Assembly (NCBI RefSeq): GCF_014931715.1
Contig: NZ_CP063164.1
Location: forward strand, 1,302,001-1,366,000
Source of the DNA: Sulfurovum indicum
GTDB lineage: Bacteria > Campylobacterota > Campylobacteria > Campylobacterales > Sulfurovaceae
Length of the DNA: 64,000 nucleotides
Direction of reading: 5' to 3'
In this document: piece after piece, positions 10,134 through 51,036 of the stretch
How the letters are laid out: each line of letters starts with the position of its first letter
How positions within the stretch are numbered: the stretch's first letter is position 1
Made by a program: the position numbers and the translations under genes
Notes under the pieces: model-generated
What the model saw: only the letters and a program-made list of their open reading frames with translations
The model's database searches: none
What the model was told of the DNA's origin: nothing

Positions 10134-12554
10134 ATGAGAATTGTAATTGTAGGTGGCGGAATATCTGCAGCTTATCTTGCCAACCATCTAAAAAAAGCCG
10201 CACCGTACCACGATATACTCATTGTCAGCGATGAGCCCTATCCTCCCTATGACCGTATTCACCTCTGTGCACTTGTTGAGCGCTCCAAAATGCTGGATGA
10301 TATCTCACTTTCTCTTGACCCTACCGTACAACTTGAACTGAAGCAGAAGATCATACATATCAATCCAAAGAAAAAACAGATCTTTTCACACAGCAGCATG
10401 TACAGTTACGACAAACTGATCATCGCAACCGGTTCACATGCCAAAGCGCCTTTTGATCTGAGCGGTATAAAGAATGCCTCAGTTTTCAGAAATGCAGATG
10501 AAGCGTTCAGGATTGCCGACCGTATCAGACACAAAGAGGTACTGCTTGTCGGTGCCGGGCCTATTGCCCTGGAACTTCTGGAGTCGTTGAACCATATTGA
10601 AGATGTAACGCATATCACACTGCTTGTCAGACACGACTACCTCTATGAGAGAACCCTCAGCAGCGAATCAGTCAAGATCATCGAATCCGCCTATCTGCAA
10701 AGCGGCAAAGTGACTATCTCCTATGAAGATGAGATCACCGATACCCTCATAGAAGGATCAGAGATCGTCAAGGTACATACCAAGAAGCATCTTTTTGATC
10801 ATCCTTTTGTCATTTACGGTATCGGTATAGAACCCAATATCGACTTTGCAAAAGATGTTCTTGAGTGTGACAGAGGTATACTCACAGACCGTTTCATGCA
10901 AACCTCCGACCCCGATATCTTTGCAGTGGGAGAGTGCGCGCAGATCAGAGAGACCGGTTTTATAGCCGGTCACGTCAAAGCATGTACCCTGCAGGCAGAC
11001 AGTGCTCTCTCAAAACTCTTGGAACTGGAAGCACTCCCTTTTGAAGAGGGAGTCTCAACCGATGTACTTAAAGTAGGCAGTTTCGAACTGGTTGATGTCA
11101 AAGCACCCTGCTTTGACAGGCACTTCGAAAAAGTCATTCTAAATGCGCCCCGGGAGAAAAGAGTCGATGAGTTTTACCTCGATAAAAACCGTTTAATCCG
11201 TTTCATAGGACTTAACTCAAACATGGATATCGGCTACCTGCAGGCACTGATGGAATCCAAAGAGAATGTAAACCTCGATACACTCTATGAAAGCCGGATT
11301 CCCAATGAAAAGGGTCGCCTGGTCTGCAGCTGCGAACATCTTTACCGGCAGGATCTTGTCAACATTATCACACAAAACGGTATCAGGGATTTTCATGCAC
11401 TCAAAGATTTTACTCAGGCAGGCAGAGTATGCGGGAAGTGCCGCCAAAGCATCCTACAGATCATAGAAGAGTCACAGCGCCTCATAGACCCGAATATGGT
11501 CACAAAAACACCCGAAGAACAAAAAAGAGAAGTCATACTGAAAAAGGTTGAAGAACGCATTGAGAAATACAATCGGCTGCACCCGCATAATCAGCTTGAC
11601 AAAACAGACCTTGAAAGTGCACTTGCGGCTATAGAGAAGGACCGGGAGACATTCAACCGGTGGATCTCCATGGTCACTGCCTCTATGCAGCTGCATCCCA
11701 GCTTTGAAAGACATGTCCAAAATGCCGTTACAGTACTGAACAAAATACCCATCATCTGGCTGGAACTCAGTGACTGTTCAGGAAACTCCGAGGCTTTCAT
11801 AAAATCCACCAACCCGTCCATCGAAGATCTGATCTTCAACTATATCTCTCTGGATTATCACGAGCTGATCATGAGTGCATCTTCCGATCAGAGTGAGAGT
11901 TTGCTTGAGTCGATCATTAAAACAGAAAAAGGCAGCTATATCCTTATTGTCGAAGGAGCTGTTCCTCTCGGTATGAATGGTAAATTCCTGCGTATCGGTG
12001 CAAAAGGTGAGACCGGTCTCTCCCTCCTTCAACGCTGTGCCGAAGATGCCGCACTTATTATTGCTGTGGGAAGCTGTGCCTATGACGGCGGCGTGGTAGC
12101 GGCTGCTCCCAATCCTACAGGTGCAGCCGGTGTGAGCGAAGCACTTAGGAGAGATGATGTCATCAATATCCCGGGTTGCCCTGCCAACCCTGTCAATATC
12201 GTGGGGACCCTGCTGCACTACATGATGTTCGAAGAGTTGCCTCCGCTTGACAGCAACAACCGGCCACTTTGGGCATATGAGGGGCGTATCCACGATAATT
12301 GTGAAAGACGCGGGCACTATGAGCTGGGAGAGTTCGTCAAAGAGTGGGGAGATGAAGGTGCGAAAAAAGGGTGGTGTCTGTTCGAAATGGGATGCAAAGG
12401 ACCTTATGCTTTTGCCAACTGTCCGACTATGAAATTCAATGAAAGTACCAGCTGGCCGGTACAGGCAGGTCACGGCTGTATGGCATGTACAGAAAAAAAC
12501 TTCTTCGACACCTATGCCCATGAAAGAAAAATCACACCAGAAGGTGAAAAATGA
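10134..12554 (+). CDS. FAD/NAD(P) oxidoreductase - BFD [2Fe-2S] - [NiFe] hydrogenase small subunit fusion
   Basis: An 806-residue three-part protein. Residues 1-300 form a pyridine-nucleotide disulfide oxidoreductase module like the N-terminus of NirB or rubredoxin reductase: FAD loop VGGGISA, NAD(P) loop VGAGPIALE and GILTD...DIFAVGECA. Residues 395-440 are a BFD-like [2Fe-2S] domain (C398, C400, C433, C436). After a helical linker, about 530-806 is a hydrogenase small subunit with C548, C648 and C682 for the proximal cluster plus the distal His/Cys set (IHDNC, GWC, MGC) and medial Cys set. Asn551 replaces the usual second proximal Cys. No Tat signal or membrane anchor is present, so it should be cytoplasmic. 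Its stop overlaps the large-subunit ATG (ATGA). The architecture suggests H2-dependent NAD(P) reduction or the reverse within two polypeptides. Confidence 0.9.
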   Translation: MRIVIVGGGISAAYLANHLKKAAPYHDILIVSDEPYPPYDRIHLCALVERSKMLDDISLSLDPTVQLELKQKIIHINPKKKQIFSHSSMYSYDKLIIATGSHAKAPFDLSGIKNASVFRNADEAFRIADRIRHKEVLLVGAGPIALELLESLNHIEDVTHITLLVRHDYLYERTLSSESVKIIESAYLQSGKVTISYEDEITDTLIEGSEIVKVHTKKHLFDHPFVIYGIGIEPNIDFAKDVLECDRGILTDRFMQTSDPDIFAVGECAQIRETGFIAGHVKACTLQADSALSKLLELEALPFEEGVSTDVLKVGSFELVDVKAPCFDRHFEKVILNAPREKRVDEFYLDKNRLIRFIGLNSNMDIGYLQALMESKENVNLDTLYESRIPNEKGRLVCSCEHLYRQDLVNIITQNGIRDFHALKDFTQAGRVCGKCRQSILQIIEESQRLIDPNMVTKTPEEQKREVILKKVEERIEKYNRLHPHNQLDKTDLESALAAIEKDRETFNRWISMVTASMQLHPSFERHVQNAVTVLNKIPIIWLELSDCSGNSEAFIKSTNPSIEDLIFNYISLDYHELIMSASSDQSESLLESIIKTEKGSYILIVEGAVPLGMNGKFLRIGAKGETGLSLLQRCAEDAALIIAVGSCAYDGGVVAAAPNPTGAAGVSEALRRDDVINIPGCPANPVNIVGTLLHYMMFEELPPLDSNNRPLWAYEGRIHDNCERRGHYELGEFVKEWGDEGAKKGWCLFEMGCKGPYAFANCPTMKFNESTSWPVQAGHGCMACTEKNFFDTYAHERKITPEGEK

Positions 12555-14209
12555 AAAAGATCGTGATAGACCCGGTCACCCGTATAGAGGGACATCTCCG
12601 AGTTGAGCTGATAGTAGATGAGACAAATAACGTAGAGGAAGCTTATGTCAGCGGACAGCTCTTCCGCGGGATCGAGACCATTCTTAAAAACAGGGATCCC
12701 CGAGATGCCGGCCTGATGGCAGGACGTATCTGCGGAGTCTGCACTAACTCACATTTTCGTGCTGCTGTCAGCTGCGTTGAAGATGCCTATGCCCTTGAGG
12801 TTCCCAAAAATGCGGAGATCATCAGGGAACTGATCGCACTGGCTCTTTTTATTCAGGACCATGTGGTACATTTCTACCATCTTCAATTACTCGATTTTGT
12901 CGATGTGACAAGCGCACTCGAAGCAGACCCGGCACAAACCGTTCAAACAGCACGCAGCTATTCGGATGATCCCTTCCGCAACTCACAGGCACACTACGAA
13001 AATGTCCAAAAGAGACTTCAGGCTTTTGTCAATGCAGGCAGACTCGGGCCCTTCGCAAATGCCTACTGGGGGCATTCCGCCTACAGATTAAGCCCTGAAG
13101 AGAACCTTGTTCTGCTTTCACACTATCTTGATGCTCTCAAATTCCAGACCAGTATCTCCAAAGCTGTTGCCGTCTTCGGCGGGAAAACCCCCCACCCCCA
13201 AAGTATCGTTGTAGGCGGAGTCACCAGTGTGATGGATATGCTCAGTCCGGCCAGGGTCAATGAGTATCTCTTTACGATTAAAGAAGCAAAGGAGTTCATA
13301 GACAGAGCCTACCTCCCCGACATGAAACTGCTTGTAAACGCTTATCGTGATGAAATCAAAGCAGGGGTCGGCCGGGCAAACGGAAATTTCATCTCTGCCG
13401 GGGGATTTAACTTTAGCGGAGGCACACTCTTTGAAAGCGGTGTGATCTTTGAACATGACTTCAATACGCTCAAACCGTTCGACCCTGAAAACATCAGTGA
13501 AGGTGTGGAGAGAGCCTGGTATGAAAAGAACGATCCGCAGATACCCTGTTATACGGACCTCAACGAGGACGGCTCACTTAAAACAGAGAAGCGTACTGAC
13601 AAATACAGCTGGATCAAAGCTCCACGCTACCAGGGCAAAACAATGGAATGCGGACCTCTGGCACGTCTTCTCGTCAACTATATCAAAAAGAATACCTGCA
13701 TGAAACCTTATGTAGACAGATTTCTGAATGAGACAAACCTTGAACTCATCGACCTTTCAACCAGTATAGGCAGAAATGCTGCACGTGCCATTGAAACACA
13801 GTACATTGCAGAGTATCTCTTCAGGTTTATCAGTGATCTTCTTCAGAATCTTACCTATCACGATACAGATACATGGGGGAAATATGATTTTGATGCACTG
13901 CCCAAAACAGCCAGAGGAGAGGCTTTTTTTGAGGTGCCAAGAGGGCTTCTTTCACACTTTGTCAATATTAAAGAGCAAAAGATAGCCAACTATTCCGTCA
14001 TCGCACCCACTACCTGGAATGCCGGACCCAAAAGCCTTGACGGAGAAAGGGGCATCTACGAAGAAGCTCTTACAGGTATCAGGATAGCAGACACAGAAAA
14101 ACCGCTCGAAGCACTCAGGATCATCCGCTCATTTGATCCATGCCTCGCCTGTGCCGTACATATCATAGACCTAAAAGGCAAAGTGTTGCACCGCTACAAA
14201 ATCACTTAA
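12551..14209 (+). CDS. [NiFe] hydrogenase large subunit, partner of the flavoprotein fusion
   Basis: A 552-residue large subunit. It starts with a DPVTRIEGHL segment. The L1 motif RICGVCTNSH (about residue 58) and L2 motif DPCLACAVH near the C-terminus supply the four nickel Cys. Fifteen residues follow the L2 His, so a maturation protease must remove them. It is translationally coupled to the fused small subunit (4-bp overlap), and its closest-looking relatives here are HydB1 and HydB2. It has no export signal of its own and, with a Tat-less partner, should remain in the cytoplasm. No protease gene lies next to it; the one at 1447-1980 is a candidate. Confidence 0.95.
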   Translation: MKKIVIDPVTRIEGHLRVELIVDETNNVEEAYVSGQLFRGIETILKNRDPRDAGLMAGRICGVCTNSHFRAAVSCVEDAYALEVPKNAEIIRELIALALFIQDHVVHFYHLQLLDFVDVTSALEADPAQTVQTARSYSDDPFRNSQAHYENVQKRLQAFVNAGRLGPFANAYWGHSAYRLSPEENLVLLSHYLDALKFQTSISKAVAVFGGKTPHPQSIVVGGVTSVMDMLSPARVNEYLFTIKEAKEFIDRAYLPDMKLLVNAYRDEIKAGVGRANGNFISAGGFNFSGGTLFESGVIFEHDFNTLKPFDPENISEGVERAWYEKNDPQIPCYTDLNEDGSLKTEKRTDKYSWIKAPRYQGKTMECGPLARLLVNYIKKNTCMKPYVDRFLNETNLELIDLSTSIGRNAARAIETQYIAEYLFRFISDLLQNLTYHDTDTWGKYDFDALPKTARGEAFFEVPRGLLSHFVNIKEQKIANYSVIAPTTWNAGPKSLDGERGIYEEALTGIRIADTEKPLEALRIIRSFDPCLACAVHIIDLKGKVLHRYKIT

Positions 14210-32013: not shown

Positions 32014-32039
32014 TATAATTTTTATTGAATGACTATTCA
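32014..32039 (+). promoter_or_regulatory. Promoter and TetR-type operator of the group 4 hydrogenase operon
   Basis: TATAAT at 32014-32019 is followed by TGAATGACTATTCA at 32026-32039. The palindrome covers the expected transcription start, a typical repressor position. The first gene begins 72 bp further on after a strong AGGAGG. Confidence 0.75.
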
Positions 32040-32111
32040 TTCAAGGTAACAAATATTTAATTTATTATTTGTTAGTCTTTAAGTTTAAATTAAAAAAAAG
32101 AGGAGGTAGCT

Positions 32112-32396
32112 GTGAATGAAACATGTATACGAATGTATTGTGAATCAGAGGGTAGATGTCATGGTATTGTGTTAGTTTTTTTTAATAAAGAACAAAAAGA
32201 GAGAGTATTGTCCAAAGCGGATGAACTGGCTCACAGACATAGAGTTGCACCTGATATCTCTATTCGTAAAATGAATAAATATGGAGAAGTATTTATAGAA
32301 TTTTATGATGATTATCATAAAGAAGGCGGGTGTTTTTTTGAGGACCTTGTAGAAACACTTGGTGCTAAATTATGTGATTGTGAGGAGTTGTTATGA
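32112..32396 (+). CDS. Unrecognised small cysteine-containing protein, first gene of the group 4 operon
   Basis: A 94-residue protein with GTG start (32112) after AGGAGG. It has Cys in three places: TCIRMYC and GRC in the first 16 residues, GGC near 73, and CDC near the end. The middle is mixed alpha/beta with no known motif and no signal or membrane segment. It overlaps the next gene by 4 bp (ATGA), so it is coupled to the NuoB-like subunit. The Cys pattern could bind a metal or assist assembly of the complex. I do not recognise the family. Confidence 0.7.
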   Translation: MNETCIRMYCESEGRCHGIVLVFFNKEQKERVLSKADELAHRHRVAPDISIRKMNKYGEVFIEFYDDYHKEGGCFFEDLVETLGAKLCDCEELL

Positions 32397-33274
32397 GTAA
32401 AGTTATTCCCAAACTGTTTAGAATAAATACAGGAAGCTGTAATGGTTGTGATGTTGAGTTTGTAGCTACAGCCTTTGTAGATAAGTTTCAGCTTGACACC
32501 CTGGGCATAGAACTGGTGAGTGATGTAAAAGATGCCAACTTATTGGTAATTACAGGTCCTTTGTCTGCAAGAAGTGAATCTTTTTTGAAAAATGCCTTAG
32601 GTAAGCTAAAAAAACCCTTTGTTGTTGTTGGGATCGGAACCTGTTCTGTGAGTTGCGGGATTTTCAGGGACTCATATGCCATCAACGGACCTATTGACAA
32701 GTTCGTTGAAGTAGATGTCAATATAGCAGGCTGTCCTCCAAGACCTCAGTCTATTGCAGAAGGTATTGCCAAGGGTGTCAAAGTATTGGAACAGAAAATG
32801 CATGGTGAAGCAACACCCAAAGCTATTGATACCATCTTTAAAGACTTCTCTGCACCTGAGAGTTTTCGGGGAAGAATGTCACTTAATGAAGAGAACTGTA
32901 CAGCATGCAGAACATGTGAAACAGTCTGTCCGTCAAATGCAATAGAGATATCTTCGACAGACGATGGATGGTTTGTTCATAAAATCTGGCATAACAGCTG
33001 TTGTTTTTGTGGGAATTGTGCCTATTTTTGTCCAACAGACGCCATTTTTGCTACCAACAGCTTTGATACAGCAAAACTTCAAAGTGAAAAGTTCAGTGAT
33101 GTAAATATCGGCTATATAGACTATCAAAAATGTTCCTGTTGCGGAGAGATGTATATGCCACCTTCACAAGGACTTCTAAATAAATCATATATATATAATA
33201 ATGTAAGTAAATTAAATGAAAGAATCTGTTCAAAATGCAGAAAAGAGGCAAATTTCAAAAGGATGTATGCATGA
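32393..33274 (+). CDS. Group 4 [NiFe] hydrogenase small subunit (NuoB/HycG/CooL-like) fused to a ferredoxin
   Basis: A 293-residue fusion. Residues 1-140 are NuoB-like with the N2/proximal cluster Cys in SCNGCD, GTCSVSCG and AGCPPRP. Residues 160-220 hold two [4Fe-4S] motifs, CTACRTCETVCP and CCFCGNCAYFCP. The tail (about 240-285) has two further CxxC pairs (CSCC, CSKC) that look like a zinc ribbon. This joins CooL-like and CooX-like functions in one chain. It overlaps both neighbours by ATGA. No membrane segment is seen. Electrons from the NiFe site would pass through this subunit. Confidence 0.9.
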   Translation: MSKVIPKLFRINTGSCNGCDVEFVATAFVDKFQLDTLGIELVSDVKDANLLVITGPLSARSESFLKNALGKLKKPFVVVGIGTCSVSCGIFRDSYAINGPIDKFVEVDVNIAGCPPRPQSIAEGIAKGVKVLEQKMHGEATPKAIDTIFKDFSAPESFRGRMSLNEENCTACRTCETVCPSNAIEISSTDDGWFVHKIWHNSCCFCGNCAYFCPTDAIFATNSFDTAKLQSEKFSDVNIGYIDYQKCSCCGEMYMPPSQGLLNKSYIYNNVSKLNERICSKCRKEANFKRMYA

Positions 33275-33774
33275 ATATAGAAGAGTTTAACAATGCTATA
33301 AAAAGCAAAACTTTTGCAGGGTATGAACTGAAAGAAGATAAAGACAGCTATGGAAATGCTTCTGCCTGGATCATTTTAAATGATAAAAAAGATATAGAAG
33401 CCGTAGCTAACGCTGTAAAAGCCTACAAAGGCAGATGTATTGTTGCTACAGCCTATAAGAACCATAGCGGAACACATACAGTGATTTACCATTTTGATAT
33501 CGAGGGACTGATCATCAATGTACAGCTGGAAACAGATGACCAGAGTATTGTTTCCATTACCCCTACCCTTCCAAGCGCAAACTGGGCAGAAAGAGAGATA
33601 AGGGAGATGTATGGTGTTGAACCGATAGGACACCCTGATAAAGATAGACTATTTCTGGACTACAGTCTTGCAAAAGGGGTTTTAAATGAATATATATCAC
33701 TCTCCAAAATGCAGTTGGGAGTAAGTGAGACGGATATACTTTGGGAAAATGTAAACAAGGAAATAAAACAATGA
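33271..33774 (+). CDS. NuoC-like 30-kDa subunit (CooU / HycE N-terminal type)
   Basis: A 167-residue protein of the complex I 30-kDa family. The characteristic motif AEREIREMYGVEPIGHPD (about 113-130) is present. The start is ATG 33271, coupled to the previous stop; the longer frame is not needed. In group 4 hydrogenases this subunit packs against the large subunit as a separate protein (CooU) or as the N-terminus of HycE. It overlaps the next ATG by 4 bp. Confidence 0.9.
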   Translation: MNIEEFNNAIKSKTFAGYELKEDKDSYGNASAWIILNDKKDIEAVANAVKAYKGRCIVATAYKNHSGTHTVIYHFDIEGLIINVQLETDDQSIVSITPTLPSANWAEREIREMYGVEPIGHPDKDRLFLDYSLAKGVLNEYISLSKMQLGVSETDILWENVNKEIKQ

Positions 33775-34853
33775 AAGAAAAGATAACTATAGGACCATTT
33801 CATCCGGAACTGGAAGAGTCTGTCTATTTTAAACTTGTTGCAGATGAGAACAGAACCGTAACACAAGTAGAGATCATCAATGGATTTATTCACAGAGGTA
33901 TGGAGTCTCTTGTAACACAAAAGAACTTTATGCAAAATCTTATTTTGACAGAAAGGGTCTGCTCTCTGTGTTCAAATAATCATCCCTTTGCCTATGCTCT
34001 GGCAGTGGAAAAAATTTCCGGGGTCAAAGTACCTCCACGTGCAGAAGCATTGAGAGTCATTGCCGATGAAGTAAAAAGAGTAGCCTCAGACCTCTTTAAT
34101 CTTGCAATGTTGACACATTTGGCCCATCATCATGAACTGATGAAAGATACGATGGATGCCAGAGAGCATATGCAGGATCTTAAAGAGATCATCTGGGGGA
34201 ACAGAATGGATATGAGCGCAAATCAACTTACCGGTGTCAAATATGATTTAAATGAGGAAAAAATTAAACTTGTTTTGGACACGATCGCCATTGTAGAGCC
34301 AAAAGTAAACGCTCTTCTGGAAAGATACGAAAATGATGAAAGCATAAGAGCCAAAACGATCGGTGTAGGTGTATTGCCCTATAAAGATGCTTTAGCACTT
34401 GGAGTAACCGGACCGGTAGCAAGAGGAAGCGGTATCAACAATGATGTACGAATCGTTGCCCCCTACTCTCTTTATGGTGAACTTAAACCGAAAGCTACTC
34501 TCAGAGACGGTTGTGATGTACACTCCAGAGCTATGGCACGGTTTGGAGATATTGTTGAGGCGATCAGAATGATAAAAGAGGTTGTAAGAAATCTTCCAGA
34601 AGGTGATACATATGTAGAGAAGAGACCGCATATTCCGGCAGGAGAAGCTGTTGTCAGAGTAGAAGCACCAAGAGGAGAGCTTATTTACTATCTCAAAACA
34701 GACGGTTCCCAAAAACCGGTAAGAATGAAATGGAAAGTCCCCACTTTTACAAACTGGGAAGCGTTAAAAGTGATGATCCTGGGTGACAAGGTAGACAATG
34801 TAACCATGATACTCAACAGTATTGACCCTTGTATATCCTGTACTGAAAGATAG
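33771..34853 (+). CDS. Group 4 [NiFe] hydrogenase large subunit (CooH/EchE-like)
   Basis: A 360-residue large subunit of the NuoD/HycE family. It retains both nickel motifs, RVCSLCSNNH (about residue 61) and C-terminal DPCISCTER, so it is a hydrogenase and not a complex I subunit. It ends directly after L2, so no protease processing is needed, as in CooH-type proteins. Start ATG 33771 overlaps the NuoC-like stop. Group 4 enzymes normally sit on a membrane arm (NuoH- and NuoL-like subunits), but none is encoded in this operon. Confidence 0.93.
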   Translation: MKEKITIGPFHPELEESVYFKLVADENRTVTQVEIINGFIHRGMESLVTQKNFMQNLILTERVCSLCSNNHPFAYALAVEKISGVKVPPRAEALRVIADEVKRVASDLFNLAMLTHLAHHHELMKDTMDAREHMQDLKEIIWGNRMDMSANQLTGVKYDLNEEKIKLVLDTIAIVEPKVNALLERYENDESIRAKTIGVGVLPYKDALALGVTGPVARGSGINNDVRIVAPYSLYGELKPKATLRDGCDVHSRAMARFGDIVEAIRMIKEVVRNLPEGDTYVEKRPHIPAGEAVVRVEAPRGELIYYLKTDGSQKPVRMKWKVPTFTNWEALKVMILGDKVDNVTMILNSIDPCISCTER

Positions 34854-34862
34854 GAGAGATGA

Positions 34863-35369
34863 ATGAGAAACAATAGATTTATATATGCTGACCCCGACAA
34901 GTGCATAGGCTGTATCAATTGTGAATTAGCCTGTTCTGCCAGCCATATGGGATTGGATATCGATACTGTTTACGAGATGGCATTAGGAGGTGAGACTATT
35001 GCACCTTCAAGAAACAGAGTGATCAAAGTAGAAGGCAAAACCGCTCCTATGCAGTGTATGCAGTGTCCTGATGCCCCCTGCCTTGAAGGGTGTCCTGTTG
35101 ATATCATCAGGTTTGAAGATAACTTTGTCAAATATTATGAAGATGACTGTATCGGCTGTCAAAGCTGTGATATGGTCTGTCCCTATGGTGCAGTCGTAAT
35201 GGCAGCCAACATAAAACCAGATGCTCCTGTAAGCCAGATGGTAGCACTTACATGTGACCTGTGCGGCGGTGAGAATGGGAAACAGGCCTGTATCTCCATA
35301 TGCCCTACGGATGCCATAAGCTTGATTGATTACAAACAATTTGAGCAGATACAGACTTTACGAAGATAA
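34863..35369 (+). CDS. Four-cluster ferredoxin (CooF/HycB/HydN-like)
   Basis: A 168-residue protein with four Cys-rich motifs: CIGCINCELAC near 14-24, CMQCPDAPCLEGCP near 65-78, CIGCQSCDMVCP near 97-108, and CDLCGG with CISICP near 126-142. This matches the four-[4Fe-4S] polyferredoxins that carry electrons to or from group 4 hydrogenases. It has no Tat signal or membrane segment, so it is cytoplasmic. GGAGAGATG-like spacing places a ribosome binding site upstream. It is probably the bridge between the hydrogenase core and the GltD-like flavoprotein. Confidence 0.9.
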   Translation: MRNNRFIYADPDKCIGCINCELACSASHMGLDIDTVYEMALGGETIAPSRNRVIKVEGKTAPMQCMQCPDAPCLEGCPVDIIRFEDNFVKYYEDDCIGCQSCDMVCPYGAVVMAANIKPDAPVSQMVALTCDLCGGENGKQACISICPTDAISLIDYKQFEQIQTLRR

Positions 35370-35374
35370 CGAAG

Positions 35375-35716
35375 ATGCATGAGTACTCTATTGTCCAATC
35401 GATGCTTGACCTTTGCGAGAAACATGCAAAGGACAGGAAGGTCGACAAGGTGGCTGTAAAGATCGGCAGGATGAGCGGCATAGAACCCCATTTCCTCAAA
35501 GAGAGTTTTGATGTATTCAAAGAAGAGACTGCCTGTGAAAGCGCAACGATGGAGATAGACATAATCGATATAACCATCGTTTGTAAAGATTGTGGGAAAG
35601 AAGCCGTCATTGACAGTTTTAACTTTTTCTGTCCTCATTGCAAGGGAGGGAATACAGAAGTTTTAACGGGGCAGGAGATGCATATAGACTATATAGAACT
35701 GAAGGAAGAAAAATGA
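35375..35716 (+). CDS. hypA: HypA nickel chaperone, second copy
   Basis: A 113-residue HypA starting MHEYS with two zinc CxxC motifs (CKDCG and CPHC, about 72-90). It is inside the group 4 operon, 5 bp after the ferredoxin gene, and overlaps the GltD-like gene by ATGA. It differs clearly in sequence from the hyp-operon copy. A dedicated HypA suggests that nickel insertion into the group 4 large subunit uses its own chaperone, as hycA/hybF-type divisions show elsewhere; this is inference. Confidence 0.94.
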   Translation: MHEYSIVQSMLDLCEKHAKDRKVDKVAVKIGRMSGIEPHFLKESFDVFKEETACESATMEIDIIDITIVCKDCGKEAVIDSFNFFCPHCKGGNTEVLTGQEMHIDYIELKEEK

Positions 35717-37143
35717 ATAAGAAAAAGCAGTATCTAAAAATTAAAAAAGAGACTCCTCGGAAGAGAGAAGCTGAACAAAGGGTAGTTGATTTCTATCCGA
35801 CATACCATCTATTTAGCAAAGAGGAGGCAGATACACAGTCACTAAGATGTATTAAGTGTCCTGTTGATCTGCTGAAAGGACTGGAGAGTGAGTTCAGCTT
35901 TTGCAGAACAGGCTGTCCATTGGAAAATAAAATTCCCATCTGGATAGAAAAAGTAAAAGAGGGAGACATAAAAGGGGCATTTGAAGCAAGCAATGAAATT
36001 TCTCCTTTCCCTGAAATTCTTGGAATGGTCTGTCCCCATGATGTACTTTGTCAAGGTGGATGTACCATAGCTAAAACAGAGAGCGGAAGTGTCTCTATCG
36101 GAGCCATAGAAGTCTATCTGAATGAACAGGCTTTTAAGATGGGACTTAAGCCTGACTATGGACAGAACAGACAGAAAAGCGGGAAAAGAGTTGCTGTTAT
36201 CGGAAGCGGACCTGCAGGTATGAGTTGTGCAACCTTTCTGCTTAGAGGCGGTGTTGAAGTAGATATGTTCGAAAAATCTGATAGACCTGGAGGCCTTCTT
36301 ACTTATGGTATTCCAAACTTTAAAATCAAAAAAGATGTGATCTTAAGACGATTTAATTGGATGCAGGAAGCTGGTATGAACCTCCATTTAAACAGCGATA
36401 TACAAAGCTCCGAACAACTTAAAAGAATGTTGGATGACTACGATGCTATTTTTGTAGGTATCGGTGCACCGAGCAGCAGAGGTGCCAGAATGAAAAATGA
36501 AGATGCACACGGTGTGTATCATGTTATGGATATCTTGAAACATGCGCAGAAAAGAGTCTTTGAAGACTTCTATGAAAGCATTTTGGAAAATAAGCATGTG
36601 GTAGTTATCGGAGGTGGTGACTCTGCTATGGATGCTGTAAGAACTTCCGTAAGAATGAAAGCAAAATCGGTTCGATGTGCCTACAGAAGGGACGAAGCAA
36701 ATATGCCCGGTTCTGTCAAAGAGGTCATTAATGCCAAAGAAGAGGGGGTGATTTTTGAATTTTATACTGCTCCCAAAGAGGTCATTATTGATAAAGGCAG
36801 ACATGTAAAAGGTTTGCTCTGCCAAAGAACTCAACTGGGAAAACCCGATGAAAGCGGGAGAAGAAAACTTGAAGTTATAGAAAATAGTGAGTTTACATTG
36901 GAGTGTGATGTAATTATATTGGCACTTGGTTTTGATAATGTAGAGTTTCCATGGTATGATGATGCACAGATCAATACCGGCAAATGGGGAGATATCATTG
37001 TAGATGATGAAAAAAGAACTTCAAATGCAAGAATTTATGCAGGAGGAGATGCGGTCAGAGGTGCAGATCTTGCGGTAACTGCTGCAGCAGATGGCAGAAA
37101 AGCCGCACTTGCTATGCTGAAAAAGTTCAATATCAATCTATAA
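35713..37143 (+). CDS. GltD-like NADPH-dependent FAD / iron-sulfur oxidoreductase
   Basis: A 476-residue protein of the glutamate synthase beta-subunit/NfnB family. The N-terminal Fer4_20-type domain has the Cys set CIKCP, CRTGCP, CPHDVLCQGGC (about 47-120). Then come the FAD loop GSGPAGMSCA (about 163), the NADPH loop GGGDSAMDAVRT (about 302) with the downstream RRD arginine pair favouring NADPH, and GGDAVRGADLAVTAAADG. No GltA large subunit is nearby. Start ATG 35713 is coupled to hypA2. In this operon it probably links NADP(H) to the group 4 hydrogenase through the ferredoxin. Confidence 0.92.
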   Translation: MNKKKQYLKIKKETPRKREAEQRVVDFYPTYHLFSKEEADTQSLRCIKCPVDLLKGLESEFSFCRTGCPLENKIPIWIEKVKEGDIKGAFEASNEISPFPEILGMVCPHDVLCQGGCTIAKTESGSVSIGAIEVYLNEQAFKMGLKPDYGQNRQKSGKRVAVIGSGPAGMSCATFLLRGGVEVDMFEKSDRPGGLLTYGIPNFKIKKDVILRRFNWMQEAGMNLHLNSDIQSSEQLKRMLDDYDAIFVGIGAPSSRGARMKNEDAHGVYHVMDILKHAQKRVFEDFYESILENKHVVVIGGGDSAMDAVRTSVRMKAKSVRCAYRRDEANMPGSVKEVINAKEEGVIFEFYTAPKEVIIDKGRHVKGLLCQRTQLGKPDESGRRKLEVIENSEFTLECDVIILALGFDNVEFPWYDDAQINTGKWGDIIVDDEKRTSNARIYAGGDAVRGADLAVTAAADGRKAALAMLKKFNINL

Positions 37144-37148
37144 TCTAC

Positions 37149-37162
37149 TGAACGACCATTCA
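37149..37162. promoter_or_regulatory. TetR-type operator before the small exported gene and tetR1
   Basis: TGAACGACCATTCA matches the local palindrome except for C at position 5. It is centred in a larger inverted repeat with arms CTACTGAA and TTCAGTAG (37145-37166). It lies 5 bp after the GltD-like stop, so it could also fold as an mRNA hairpin ending the operon, although no U-run follows. Autoregulation of tetR1 is the simplest reading. Confidence 0.5.
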
Positions 37163-37318
37163 GTAGACTTAAGAAAAACATATTTTATATTGATATACAA
37201 TATGGAAGTTACTTTTAATGTTCCATAATATATCCGAGAATTAGAAGCTGTCTATAAAAATAATTTAGGGAGAATTCATAGCTTTATTTTCTATCATATA
37301 CAAAGGAAAAAGGACAAG

Positions 37319-37543
37319 ATGAATAAATTATTGACAATTGCTCTGTTACTCTTGTATTTACCTATATTCTCAATAGCTTCTGAGACTCTGGGTAGGATGA
37401 ATGGACAAAATATTACAACTTATTTTCTTCTAAACGAACAGGCTAATCAAATAAAATTAAGTGATAAAAGATTAAGAGAATACTGTCTACTAAACCAATA
37501 TAGATATTTTAAAGTTTATCAGGAAAGAAATTTAAATATATGA
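37319..37543 (+). CDS. Small exported protein of unknown function
   Basis: A 74-residue protein with a Sec-type signal sequence (MNKLLTIALLLLYLPIFSIA, about 1-20). The mature part is short and polar with one Cys and no recognised domain. AAAGGAAAAAGGAC lies before the ATG. Its stop overlaps the tetR1 start by 4 bp (ATGA), so it is cotranscribed with that regulator. The function cannot be told from sequence. Confidence 0.6.
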   Translation: MNKLLTIALLLLYLPIFSIASETLGRMNGQNITTYFLLNEQANQIKLSDKRLREYCLLNQYRYFKVYQERNLNI

Positions 37544-38124
37544 GAAATAAATTCAAAAAAAAGAATACGATAATCCTGTCGGCATTAAAACTTTTTTCAA
37601 AAAAAGGTTTTTACAATACTACGATATCAGAAATTTCAAAAAACATGGGAGTCAGTGTAGGAAATATTTATAACTATTTTCCATCAAAGAACTCTTTGGC
37701 AAAAGCATCAATAACATTTGTTGCAAAAAAACTGGCTACTAATTTAAGATATATAAACAATCAAAATATATCTTCCCAAGAGAAGGTATATATGTTTGTC
37801 ATAAGTTACCTGAACTTTTTAAAAGAACACCCTGAAATGATAGATTATTTTTTCAGGGTCTACTTATCCAACAGAGAGGTTTTTTGTAAAGAAGAAGACT
37901 GCGGGTTCCAACTCGCAAAAGACTTTATTGATGAAATTGAAATACTTATAGACACGGGAACAGAAAACGGTGAATTCAAAAAACAGAATTTCTATGTCGG
38001 TTTTTCCTGTATTACCGGAATACTTGGAGGCATAACATTTTTAAATGGTGAAAAAGTTCTGGAAGATGACTTAAATATTTATGCCCGGGATCTGTCAACT
38101 GCTATTTGTAAGGCTTTATCATAA
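37540..38124 (+). CDS. TetR-family regulator 1
   Basis: A 194-residue TetR/AcrR protein. The N-terminal HTH (about 10-56) holds the recognition segment VSVGNIYNYFPSK. The ligand domain has Cys near the motif RVYLSNREVF (CKEEDC, about residues 112-117) and another in FSCITG, possible redox or metal contacts. It is a paralog of the regulator at 50443-51036, sharing the YLSNREVF stretch and recognition helix. It follows the group 4 hydrogenase operon. It is the likely ligand of the TGAAT-N4-ATTCA palindromes, alone or with its paralog. Confidence 0.88.
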   Translation: MRNKFKKKNTIILSALKLFSKKGFYNTTISEISKNMGVSVGNIYNYFPSKNSLAKASITFVAKKLATNLRYINNQNISSQEKVYMFVISYLNFLKEHPEMIDYFFRVYLSNREVFCKEEDCGFQLAKDFIDEIEILIDTGTENGEFKKQNFYVGFSCITGILGGITFLNGEKVLEDDLNIYARDLSTAICKALS

Positions 38125-48261: not shown

Positions 48262-49554
48262 TTACTGTGCTGTACAAACAGAACAGACATCAAAAGTACG
48301 AAAGATAAATGTAGCCTCTTCAATACTTTTTGAGCCTACCATTGCCCGAATTGCAATACCCTTCTCCTGAGACGTACCATGACTAAGGTTCCACTGTGTA
48401 GGTGTAATGATCTCATAATTAACGATCTTTCCCTTTTCTACAGTTGTCTTATGAATCAATGATCCTCTTGAAGCCTCTACAATACCTACACCTTCAAAGC
48501 TGTCATGAGTCTGATTGGCTTCCAAGACACAGGAAGGCTCATCTAAAGACAAATCATATAAAAGTTCTTTACAATATCCCAGCAACTGAGCAATCTCATT
48601 CACACGTGCAAAAATACGTGTATACAATGAATCCTTATAGCGTTTATGCAAACTCCGGACAATTGGTGTTTTAGCTACCATTCCCCGTGCAAGCGGCCCT
48701 ACTTCATAAAGTCTGTTCTTATATGTAACAGCTTTTGCTACAGTACCTTTCTGCTCTGATTCTTCTACATAACGTATATCAGCATTAGCGACACTCGTTG
48801 CGATCAATTTACCTGAAGGTCTTCCCATATCTTTTCCAAAGACGATAAAACGGTCATAGCTCTGTCCTGTGCTTAGCATACCGTATACTTCCAGTCCGTC
48901 TATCAACTTTCTGAGATCACCATTAATCTTAGACAGTGAAGAGACAGACTCAATCTCCAAATAGTCACTAAAAGAGATTCCTGTCATAACCTGTTCAAAA
49001 AAACGTATTGCTTCATCAACAAACCCCTCAGCCTGCATCACATCCACATAAGTTGGATCACAGGTAATACCTCCCGGAACCGCATAGGAAGAGTGGGGCC
49101 ACTGACCTGCAAAAACGGCCAGTGCTTTTGTAATAGTTGATGAAAGATATGATGCCTTTAATGCATAGTTTTCACCACTTTGCGTAGCTGTCAGGTGTTC
49201 AAACTGTGGCAAGATGACCAGATAGAACCATTTGATATGGTTTTGAATGACTTCACACGCCAGCGTAAACTCCCGGATCTTTTCAGCTTTGCTTGTCAAC
49301 TGAATGCTGATCCCCTGACTCTGATAACCATTCTCGATCGCTCTGACCGCTGCAAGAAGATGTGCATGATTGCAGATACCGCAGACCCTGGGGGTGATCA
49401 CCAGTGCATCTCTTGGTACTTTTCCCACAAGTATCTCCTCGATACCACGGTAAAATCCAAAACCTATGTGAACATCTTCTATCTTGCCATTCTTAAATGT
49501 AAAGTCAAGCTCAGCTTCGCCCTCTATCTTCTCAATCAGTTTTTTCACGACCAT
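48262..49554 (-). CDS. HupV-like [NiFe] hydrogenase large subunit, no C-terminal extension
   Basis: A 430-residue large subunit, shorter than the group 1 proteins here. L1 is RVCGICNHAH (about 52) and the protein ends at DVCSVCTAQ, directly after L2. Lack of a cleavable tail is typical of H2-sensing HupV/HoxC subunits. No signal is present. ATG 49554 with AGAGGA is chosen over a TTG seven codons earlier; it overlaps the small-subunit stop by 23 bp. It is in one operon with tetR2. A sensor role is inferred; a group 2 cytoplasmic uptake enzyme is the alternative. Confidence 0.88.
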   Translation of the reverse strand: MVVKKLIEKIEGEAELDFTFKNGKIEDVHIGFGFYRGIEEILVGKVPRDALVITPRVCGICNHAHLLAAVRAIENGYQSQGISIQLTSKAEKIREFTLACEVIQNHIKWFYLVILPQFEHLTATQSGENYALKASYLSSTITKALAVFAGQWPHSSYAVPGGITCDPTYVDVMQAEGFVDEAIRFFEQVMTGISFSDYLEIESVSSLSKINGDLRKLIDGLEVYGMLSTGQSYDRFIVFGKDMGRPSGKLIATSVANADIRYVEESEQKGTVAKAVTYKNRLYEVGPLARGMVAKTPIVRSLHKRYKDSLYTRIFARVNEIAQLLGYCKELLYDLSLDEPSCVLEANQTHDSFEGVGIVEASRGSLIHKTTVEKGKIVNYEIITPTQWNLSHGTSQEKGIAIRAMVGSKSIEEATFIFRTFDVCSVCTAQ

Positions 49555-50440
49555 AGTCGATGATCCTCTCTTCAAGTCGTTTGATCCTGAAACTTTTACT
49601 AACCCCTGTAGCTGTTAAATAAGCCCGTCTTGGTACGCCAAGAGGCATAGTAGCAGGAATCCCCATATTGGTCTTGGTTTCAAAAAGAGTCGTTTTGGGG
49701 AAATCAGGCTCAGTACAGCCAAAACAAGGCATACCGGCAACCGTTTTGGAACTCACATCATTCCAAAGTATTTTATTACAGCTTCCTCTTGTGTATGGGC
49801 CCTGACACCCCTGCTCATAAAAAAGACACCCCTCTTTAAGCCCAAAACCTTTAGTATCAATCTTCCACTCAAAGTATTCATTTCGTACACATCCTGTATG
49901 CACGGTAATACCGTAAAGTTCCTGTGGACGATGCATCTCATCGAGAGGAATATGCCTCTTGTTGGCAATCATCATCAACACATAGGAGAGCCACTTGGGA
50001 TGAATAGGACAGCCAGGAAGGGAGATCAGTTTGGAAGCATATCTCTTATAACGCTTCCCCGGCTCTTCTCCGTCAAAACAAAATCCTGTGATCGCATCAG
50101 GATCATGTTGCTTAAAGACCCCGCCAAAGGTAGCACAGGTACCTGCTGAAATAATAAATTTTGCTTTTTTTGCATAGGTCTCCACAAAGGAAATGACCTC
50201 AACACCACTTTTTACAAAGCCCTCTTCCCGGAAAGAACCCTCCAGTATCAGTACATCACAAGGAACTTTTCCCTTGATGACTTCCTCCAGTGTATATTCT
50301 GTTTCAAGTACCGGATGGTACAGTAGTTCAAAGTGTGAAAGTATGGAGAAAAGATCGTAGTGATTGAAAAAAGAGTGGGTATTACCATTGCAGGTTATGG
50401 ACTGAAGCCAAAGTAGTTTGGGTTTGGCCTCTGCTGACAC
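49532..50440 (-). CDS. HupU-like [NiFe] hydrogenase small subunit
   Basis: A 302-residue small subunit without Tat signal or membrane anchor. It begins LLWLQSITCNGNTHSF, where C17 is present and Asn20 replaces the second proximal Cys, as in some group 2 enzymes such as cyanobacterial HupS. GTCATFGG and LPGCP supply the other proximal ligands. Distal and medial ligands are complete (VHTGC, EGC-x5-GC, SC, MPC-x2-C). It starts 2 bp after the tetR2 stop. No HupT-like kinase or HupR-like regulator is nearby. Confidence 0.88.
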   Translation of the reverse strand: MSAEAKPKLLWLQSITCNGNTHSFFNHYDLFSILSHFELLYHPVLETEYTLEEVIKGKVPCDVLILEGSFREEGFVKSGVEVISFVETYAKKAKFIISAGTCATFGGVFKQHDPDAITGFCFDGEEPGKRYKRYASKLISLPGCPIHPKWLSYVLMMIANKRHIPLDEMHRPQELYGITVHTGCVRNEYFEWKIDTKGFGLKEGCLFYEQGCQGPYTRGSCNKILWNDVSSKTVAGMPCFGCTEPDFPKTTLFETKTNMGIPATMPLGVPRRAYLTATGVSKSFRIKRLEERIIDYGREKTD

Positions 50441-50442
50441 TG

Positions 50443-51036
50443 CTATGCCTTGAGTGCAAAATAGATATTACGGGAGATATCATCGATGTAGTATTCGATC
50501 TCTTTGGGAAGTACCCCCTCACCCTTGAGAAAGACCATGCCTCCAAGATATCCCATAAAAAGTCCAAATGCAGAGAAAAAGTCCTGATTACGAAGTTCTC
50601 CTGAGGAGACAGCATCATCAAAAAAGATCATAATCTCTGTAATGAATCCCGAAACACAGACCATTCCTTCACACCCACTGCTGAATACTTCCCGGTTTGA
50701 AAGGTAGACACGCAGAAAATACTCGATCATCTCCGGTTTCTCTTTTGCTGTAGTAAAATAAACCTCAACTATCTTTCTGATCTTCTCTTGCGAACTGATA
50801 TCCATCATGTTGACTTCTCGTATCTTTGAACCAAGCACCTCGGAGGTATATTTAATAATTTCCTGTGCAAGAATATCTTTTGATGAGAAGTAGTTATAGA
50901 GGTTACCTACACTCATCCCGAGCTTAGTTGCTATATCAGGGATAGTGGTTTTATGAAAACCATTTAAAGAGAAAAGCTGTAGTGCCGCCTGAATGATCGA
51001 CTCGCGCTTTAATGTTTTTTTATCCTTTATATCCAC
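50443..51036 (-). CDS. TetR-family regulator 2, in operon with the HupUV-like hydrogenase
   Basis: A 197-residue TetR/AcrR protein. The HTH (about 14-60) contains MSVGNLYNYFSSK, almost the same recognition helix as in TetR1. The shared segment RVYLSNREVF is followed by Cys residues (SSGCEGMVC, about 114-122). It is the first gene of a three-gene operon with the HupU- and HupV-like subunits, spaced by 2 bp. No clear TGAAT-N4-ATTCA site is seen upstream of this gene itself. The context suggests that it receives the H2 signal from the hydrogenase, which is inference. Confidence 0.88.
   Translation of the reverse strand: MDIKDKKTLKRESIIQAALQLFSLNGFHKTTIPDIATKLGMSVGNLYNYFSSKDILAQEIIKYTSEVLGSKIREVNMMDISSQEKIRKIVEVYFTTAKEKPEMIEYFLRVYLSNREVFSSGCEGMVCVSGFITEIMIFFDDAVSSGELRNQDFFSAFGLFMGYLGGMVFLKGEGVLPKEIEYYIDDISRNIYFALKA

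Follow-up and report, generated by a model that had tools for sequence, protein, structure and literature searches.

What marks out group 4 hydrogenases, and relates them to complex I, is taken to be their ion-pumping membrane subunits. An operon of Sulfurovum indicum raises the question of what such a hydrogenase does when these subunits are missing. It lies at 32112..37143 of the window analyzed here, a stretch of 64,000 nucleotides (positions 1302001-1366000 of the complete genome, a single contig of 2.21 Mb), and codes for a [NiFe] hydrogenase and a GltD-like flavoprotein. We consider it likely that this is a Coo-type hydrogenase which lost its membrane arm after GltD had joined it, and that it works as a soluble, non-pumping H2:NADP+ oxidoreductase with GltD replacing the CO dehydrogenase (CODH).

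Gene content of the operon

All seven genes lie on the forward strand. The leader gene orf1 (32112..32396) is followed by a CooL-CooX fusion (32393..33274), a single open reading frame in which the NuoB-like small subunit (Oxidored_q6) is joined to two 4Fe-4S stretches (2x[4Fe-4S]) and a C-terminal CxxC...CxxC. The next products are the NuoC-like CooU (33271..33774; PF00329, Complex1_30kDa, 4.3e-19), the CooH-like [NiFe] hydrogenase large subunit (33771..34853; PF00346/PF00374, Complex1_49kDa/NiFeSe_Hases), a CooF/HydN-like ferredoxin with 16 cysteines for four [4Fe-4S] clusters (34863..35369; NF007658 HydN, 2e-31), the nickel metallochaperone HypA (35375..35716; PF01155, 1.8e-31), and the GltD-like FAD/NADPH flavoprotein with two N-terminal [4Fe-4S] sites (35713..37143, ATG start at 35713; PF14691, Fer4_20, and PF07992, Pyr_redox_2). 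The Pfam/NCBIfam profiles thus confirmed the inventory given in an earlier note on this DNA, made from the letters alone, which had left only orf1 undescribed. Four of the six junctions are 4-bp ATGA overlaps, in line with its statement on most junctions, and at the remaining two the genes stand 9 and 5 nt apart. The "private" HypA that it singled out turned out to be nothing special, as the neighborhoods of relatives show hypA to be a routine part of Coo operons.

CooH carries both nickel motifs, RVCSLCSNNH and the C-terminal DPCISCTER, at which the protein terminates. The nickel ligands Cys 64, 67, 354 and 357 are invariant among the 10 aligned orthologues, the others being 54-91% identical to S. 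indicum CooH, and the cofactor motifs are intact. The top PDB match is 6cfw_L, subunit alpha of a membrane-bound hydrogenase, and CooH falls in one group with its Carboxydothermus and Desulfocapsa counterparts (53-56% identical). An NADP-coupled group 3b hydrogenase was rejected, as CooH scored 27-33 bits with the sulfhydrogenase models NF040828/NF040832 versus 180 bits with Complex1_49kDa. Of the group 4c (Coo) traits, the CooH-type large subunit with its four nickel cysteines is present; CooM/CooK, both in the operon and in the genome beyond complex I, and a linked CODH are absent.

In the closer pairs (L103, L104 and L106) the nonsynonymous divergence (dN, 0.016-0.17) was far below the synonymous one (dS, 0.4-2.8 or saturated) for every operon gene; for gltD, dN was 0.02-0.17 and dS 0.8-1.4 where not saturated. 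Such rates mean strong purifying selection on every gene of the operon, with gltD no exception. Together with a gene order kept in dozens of genomes, they show that the operon is not a chance array.

Search for a membrane arm and a CODH

No membrane subunit is encoded in the operon or adjacent to it, and the absence of a NuoH-, NuoL- or CooK/CooM-like protein from the operon, pointed out in the earlier note, was borne out. A genome-wide profile search gave one NADHdh (NuoH-like) and three Proton_antipo_M matches, all inside the single nuo operon at 208-228 kb; outside this complex I operon, no NuoH/L/M/N-like genes were found in the complete genome. Because all matches belong to the complex I set, the arm missing from the operon is not encoded elsewhere either, and an orphan arm was rejected. 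A CO-linked function was rejected as well, as no Prismane-family/CODH (PF03063) match was found genome-wide. Neither PntB nor glucose-6-phosphate dehydrogenase (G6PDH) was found in the genome, so a direct route from H2 to NADPH would be useful.

Relatives and probable loss of the arm

The large subunit was searched for in 175 genomes of the family and 397 of the class, plus GTDB contigs, and the neighborhoods were then examined. Among named genomes, the closest operons come from Sulfurovum, Arcobacter and Sulfurimonas metagenome-assembled genomes (MAGs). The order CooL-X-U-H-F-hypA-gltD, whose conservation had been put forward as a check, recurs across the Campylobacterota in dozens of genomes. 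Operons of the Sulfurovum type (fused CooL-X, U, H, F, hypA, gltD, in many cases along with orf1 and a TetR gene) and of the Sulfurospirillum type (S. cavolei, S. diekertiae, SCADC and others; L and X as separate genes in most, then U, H, F, hypA, gltD) are armless. In the Nautiliaceae, CooM and CooK stand immediately upstream of separate L, X, U, H, F, hypA and gltD; one member of this family, L081, is without an arm. In the outgroup, nearly all operons (Desulfocapsa, Desulfobulbaceae, Carboxydothermus, Carboxydocella, Halodesulfovibrio, Propionispira and others) carry CooM and CooK, none of those examined has gltD, and in several a CooS-like gene, judged from sequence starts, adjoins CooF. 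Several relatives are MAG contigs; in the complete genomes of S. cavolei, S. diekertiae and S. indicum the operon has this armless layout too. The sibling genomes G029 and G069 hold the armless operon plus separate, complete arm-bearing group 4 operons, which makes the missing arm a property of the clade and not an assembly artefact.

A Firmicutes MAG (UBA5324, locus L140) has L, X, U, H, hypA, CooF and CooS without CooM/CooK and is a possible candidate for a soluble CODH-hydrogenase.

The tree of concatenated CooL-X-U-H (54 rows, 853 columns, rooted on the outgroup) parts the outgroup from all gltD operons with support of 100/93. Within the latter, the branching order is (Sulfurospirillum-type, (Nautiliaceae with arm, (L081, Sulfurovum-type))), and the states change once for gltD and three times for the arm, L140 counted. 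Constraining all armless gltD rows to one clade was rejected in the approximately unbiased (AU) test (p-AU 0.004), and with it a single loss of the arm. The simplest history is probably, as far as the trees go, that gltD was gained once and the arm was lost later, at least twice, as a single armless clade is rejected. The CooM/CooK tree gave the same three groups as the soluble subunits, without nesting and without a donor clade, and so gives no hint of loss followed by re-gain in the Nautiliaceae, although re-gain from an unsampled source is conceivable. Homologous operons with an arm, which the earlier note took as contrary to its proposal, do exist in the Nautiliaceae with CooM and CooK, but the lack of an arm in S. 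indicum is genuine: the tree and the CooL sequence point to loss, not to an overlooked arm.

The GltD tree recovered the same operon groups with an unresolved base and placed a formate-hydrogenlyase-associated GltD near them. The operon GltDs are set apart from the GltDs of the glutamate synthase (GOGAT) type and are retained in the operon across three lineages. GltD distances follow those of the hydrogenase subunits (r 0.94-0.95), as vertical descent alone would also give.

Decay of the presumed docking face of CooL

The CooL segment ATTA.IPRYDVERLGC.Y.GSPKHADI aligns with SRYDFDRMGTIFRASPRQADV of NuoB from the S. indicum complex I, a stretch which presumably faces the membrane subunit NuoH. 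Within CooL 20-56, the loss of arm-conserved positions reached 57% in the Sulfurovum type, 57% in the Sulfurospirillum type, 46% in L081 and 29% in L140, and was 0-7% in every arm-bearing lineage tested, the long Halodesulfovibrio branch included. In the remainder of CooL, 9-20% were lost in armless and 0-10% in arm-bearing lineages. By this alignment, the CooL face matching the membrane-facing loop of NuoB is eroded in every armless lineage, and the segment offers a sequence marker for the presence or loss of the membrane arm.

Type of the GltD-like subunit

GltD matches positions 191-653 of the AegA model (475 bits) and CooF its N-terminal part, so that both jointly span it; among PDB entries, GltD comes closest to the small chain of NADPH glutamate synthase. 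Of the label "GltD/NfnB-like" used earlier, the first half stands and the second does not, the profile and PDB matches giving the AegA / GltD-gamma type. NfnB needs Arg201 at its bifurcating FAD site (PMC10482914). Residue 201 of Pyrococcus furiosus NfnL aligns with Lys204 of S. indicum GltD, and a lysine occupies this position in the non-bifurcating GOGAT GltD and in all 41 operon GltDs, in which YGIPNFK is invariant (41/41). No NfnA-like partner domain (second FAD and NAD site) was found among the operon proteins with Pfam. Hence, bifurcation at GltD is not supported; the soluble NADPH-linked enzyme suggested in the earlier note remains the best reading, its bifurcating variant does not. StnC of the Stn transhydrogenase demonstrates that a GltD module can serve as a plain NADPH port (PMC10482914).

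In G069, a gene for a 63%-identical GltD (L156:6987-8441) was found beside a formate dehydrogenase-Hyf (formate hydrogenlyase-like) operon, which suggests that GltD ports may occur on other group 4 hydrogenases too. In S. indicum, a full-length GltB gene without an adjoining small subunit lies at 830.8-835.2 kb (G000 C1; L100:2795-7210), ~0.5 Mb from the operon, so the operon GltD is not encoded with GltB; the closest PDB entry of this GltB is NADPH-GltB.

Proposed mechanism and its alternatives

The operon would encode a CO-induced-type (Coo, group 4c lineage) [NiFe] hydrogenase from which CooM/CooK were lost after the GltD-like flavoprotein had entered. H2 would be oxidized at the NiFe site of CooH, and the electrons would pass via the CooL cluster to the CooX clusters, through the four clusters of the CooF/HydN-like protein and on to the two [4Fe-4S] sites and the FAD of GltD, which would reduce NADP+. 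GltD would occupy the position held by CooS in CODH-linked Coo operons, with CooF as the common adaptor. The complex would be cytoplasmic and would pump no ions. At the H2 levels of vents NADP+-linked H2 oxidation is downhill or near equilibrium; under vent-like H2 the enzyme would feed biosynthesis and CO2 fixation with NADPH, with possible operation in reverse as a redox valve. The coverage of AegA, the kinship with NADPH-GltD, Lys204 and the StnC precedent make this path the best reading, and we infer that the proteins assemble into one complex, with the path, the acceptor and the direction as described. Expression of relatives has been recorded: five of six Ech-like hydrogenase subunits were detected in S. 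cavolei on pyruvate (PMC6242987), and the proteomics of Nautilia sp. PV-1 revealed a Coo hydrogenase co-expressed with a predicted NADPH-binding subunit, for which an NADPH role was proposed (PMC10092268).

Several points weigh against this mechanism. The specificity for NADP+ is deduced from homology, and every functional step, for all members of the family, is deduced. With methyl viologen as donor, H2 production in S. multivorans and S. cavolei was confined to membranes (soluble fraction <0.01 nkat/mg; PMC6242987), and echE transcripts were negligible (PMC5357620); on both grounds, no activity of the armless enzyme has been observed so far. CooL 20-56 was picked after the pattern in the two main armless groups was known, so that L140, added later, is the only independent test of this segment (p 0.05). 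GltD might, in addition, serve glutamate synthase, as GltB has no neighboring GltD.

Among the alternatives, a soluble electron-splitting hydrogenase in which H2 reduces ferredoxin and NADP+ jointly, as in Hyt of Clostridium, with ferredoxin docking at CooX or CooF, is unlikely. The numerous Fe-S clusters offer potential ferredoxin ports, and organisms using the reductive tricarboxylic acid (rTCA) cycle require reduced ferredoxin besides NADPH. Both needs have been discussed for Nautilia (PMC10092268). However, the lysine replacing NfnB R201 (PMC10482914) is shared with the non-bifurcating GOGAT GltD, and the Pfam analysis of the operon revealed no NfnA-like or HydB/HydC-like subunit. We give slightly less credit still to a safety valve that chiefly evolves H2 from ferredoxin or NADPH during fermentation. 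The detection of the S. cavolei orthologue on pyruvate (PMC6242987) and the mostly H2-evolving nature of group 4 enzymes (HydDB, PMC5037454) would fit it, whereas Sulfurospirillum soluble fractions gave no H2 from reduced viologen (PMC6242987) and the S. indicum window encodes several other uptake-type hydrogenases.

It is quite improbable that GltD is the glutamate synthase small subunit, merely located in the operon of a ferredoxin-only hydrogenase. The solitary full-length GltB, with no other 465-aa GltD in the genome, speaks for this explanation; yet G136, whose operon CooH is 97% identical, holds the operon GltD plus a separate GOGAT-type GltD (50% identical), the genus members G063-G065 lack both the operon and a GOGAT-type GltD, and the operon GltDs group apart from the GOGAT type across three lineages. 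G136 and this separate grouping weaken such a role, though GltD of S. indicum might nevertheless have it. An arm might be borrowed in trans from complex I, which has the only one in the genome, but this is hardly credible with the CooL face for such an arm eroded in all armless lineages. Altogether, we return to the soluble H2:NADP+ oxidoreductase and lean, with a little less assurance, towards its wider form, in which an energy-converting hydrogenase was repeatedly converted into a soluble NADP+-reducing one: GltD would have provided a port via CooF, the pump would have become dispensable, and at least two losses with decay of the docking face would have ensued. The Nautiliaceae, with pump plus NADP port, may represent the surviving intermediate.

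Relation to known systems

In Nautilia, the Coo hydrogenase (cooMKLXUHF; PV-1 Hyd-3; PMC2628731, PMC10092268) belongs with the Nautiliaceae orthologues, which have the identical order L, X, U, H, F, hypA, gltD and differ in CooM (~1160 aa, 23-27 predicted transmembrane segments), CooK (319 aa, 8-9 segments) and unfused L and X; N. profundicola has cooMKLXUHF and C. mediatlanticus CooLH only (PMC2628731). The authors who described the Ech-like/CooH-like EchEDFC of S. multivorans in 2017 found its lack of membrane subunits remarkable (PMC5357620). This genus shares the armless, gltD-bearing module (CooH ~55% identical), but its arm loss is separate, L and X are mostly unfused, and GltD is unmentioned in that text. 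The CODH-linked CooMKLXUH-F-S of Carboxydothermus and relatives (HydDB group 4c) has homologous catalytic subunits and the CooF adaptor (CooH 53-54% identical), but its own ion-pumping arm and CODH, and no GltD. CooF and GltD together correspond to AegA of E. coli (HydN-like domain fused to a GltD-like one; function unsettled, PMC8097209), which is one fused protein, whereas S. indicum has two in a hydrogenase operon. StnC resembles the operon GltD as a GltD-like, non-bifurcating NADPH port on an Fe-S chain; Stn lacks a [NiFe] site and bifurcates by its HydBC-like StnAB (PMC10482914).

In the literature searched, the Nautilia PV-1 statement was the only one found on GltD beside CooH, and one orthologous gltD-bearing family, repeated arm loss or docking-face decay were not mentioned. 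The missing subunits of S. multivorans (2017) and the NADPH proposal for Nautilia (2022) were already known; the link between these precedents, the repeated arm loss and the eroded docking face are new.

Flanking elements and other genes

The leader gene orf1 (GTG start) codes for a conserved 94-aa protein with a predicted beta-beta-alpha-beta-beta-alpha fold (model pLDDT, a confidence score, of 83). It had no Pfam/NCBIfam match in the profile search of window proteins and no PDB match at E<=0.001. The gene is conserved at 9 other loci with dN/dS of ~0.1-0.2 in close pairs, and the small cysteine-bearing product is confined to Sulfurovum-type operons. Upstream of the operon, a perfect palindrome with 8-bp arms, TTGAATGA-CTAT-TCATTCAA (32025..32044), is the sole perfect match in the window and possibly a TetR operator; no site matching it was found near the second TetR gene. 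An inverted repeat at the gltD end (37137..37174) may be terminator-like or a regulator site. A TetR-family regulator is encoded at 37540..38124 on the forward strand (PF00440), with homologues at the orthologous loci L103, L105, L111 and L112.

At 10134-14209, an 806-aa fusion of a NirB-like FAD/NAD(P)H oxidoreductase, a BFD [2Fe-2S] domain and a [NiFe]-hydrogenase small subunit precedes a large subunit gene, a candidate for a second soluble NAD(P)-linked hydrogenase; at least 11 other Campylobacterota genomes encode full-length fusions of this type (53-63% identical). The HupSL-like cytoplasmic hydrogenase at 48262-51036 is headed by its own TetR gene, as is hupSL of S. multivorans (PMC5357620). 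A 669-aa protein (L098:5552-7558; G000 C1 ~213.5-215.6 kb) takes the place of NuoF in the complex I operon; it combines the NuoF 4Fe-4S domain with Fer4_20 and a GltD-like flavin/NAD(P) domain and is widespread in the genus.

Significance

The automatic annotation of group 4 hydrogenases as energy-conserving may mislead for these Campylobacterota. CODH with pump, pump with NADP port, and NADP port without pump form a natural series, which makes the modular history directly testable. The armless enzyme may also answer where H2-dependent rTCA bacteria without a PntB-type transhydrogenase and G6PDH obtain their NADPH.

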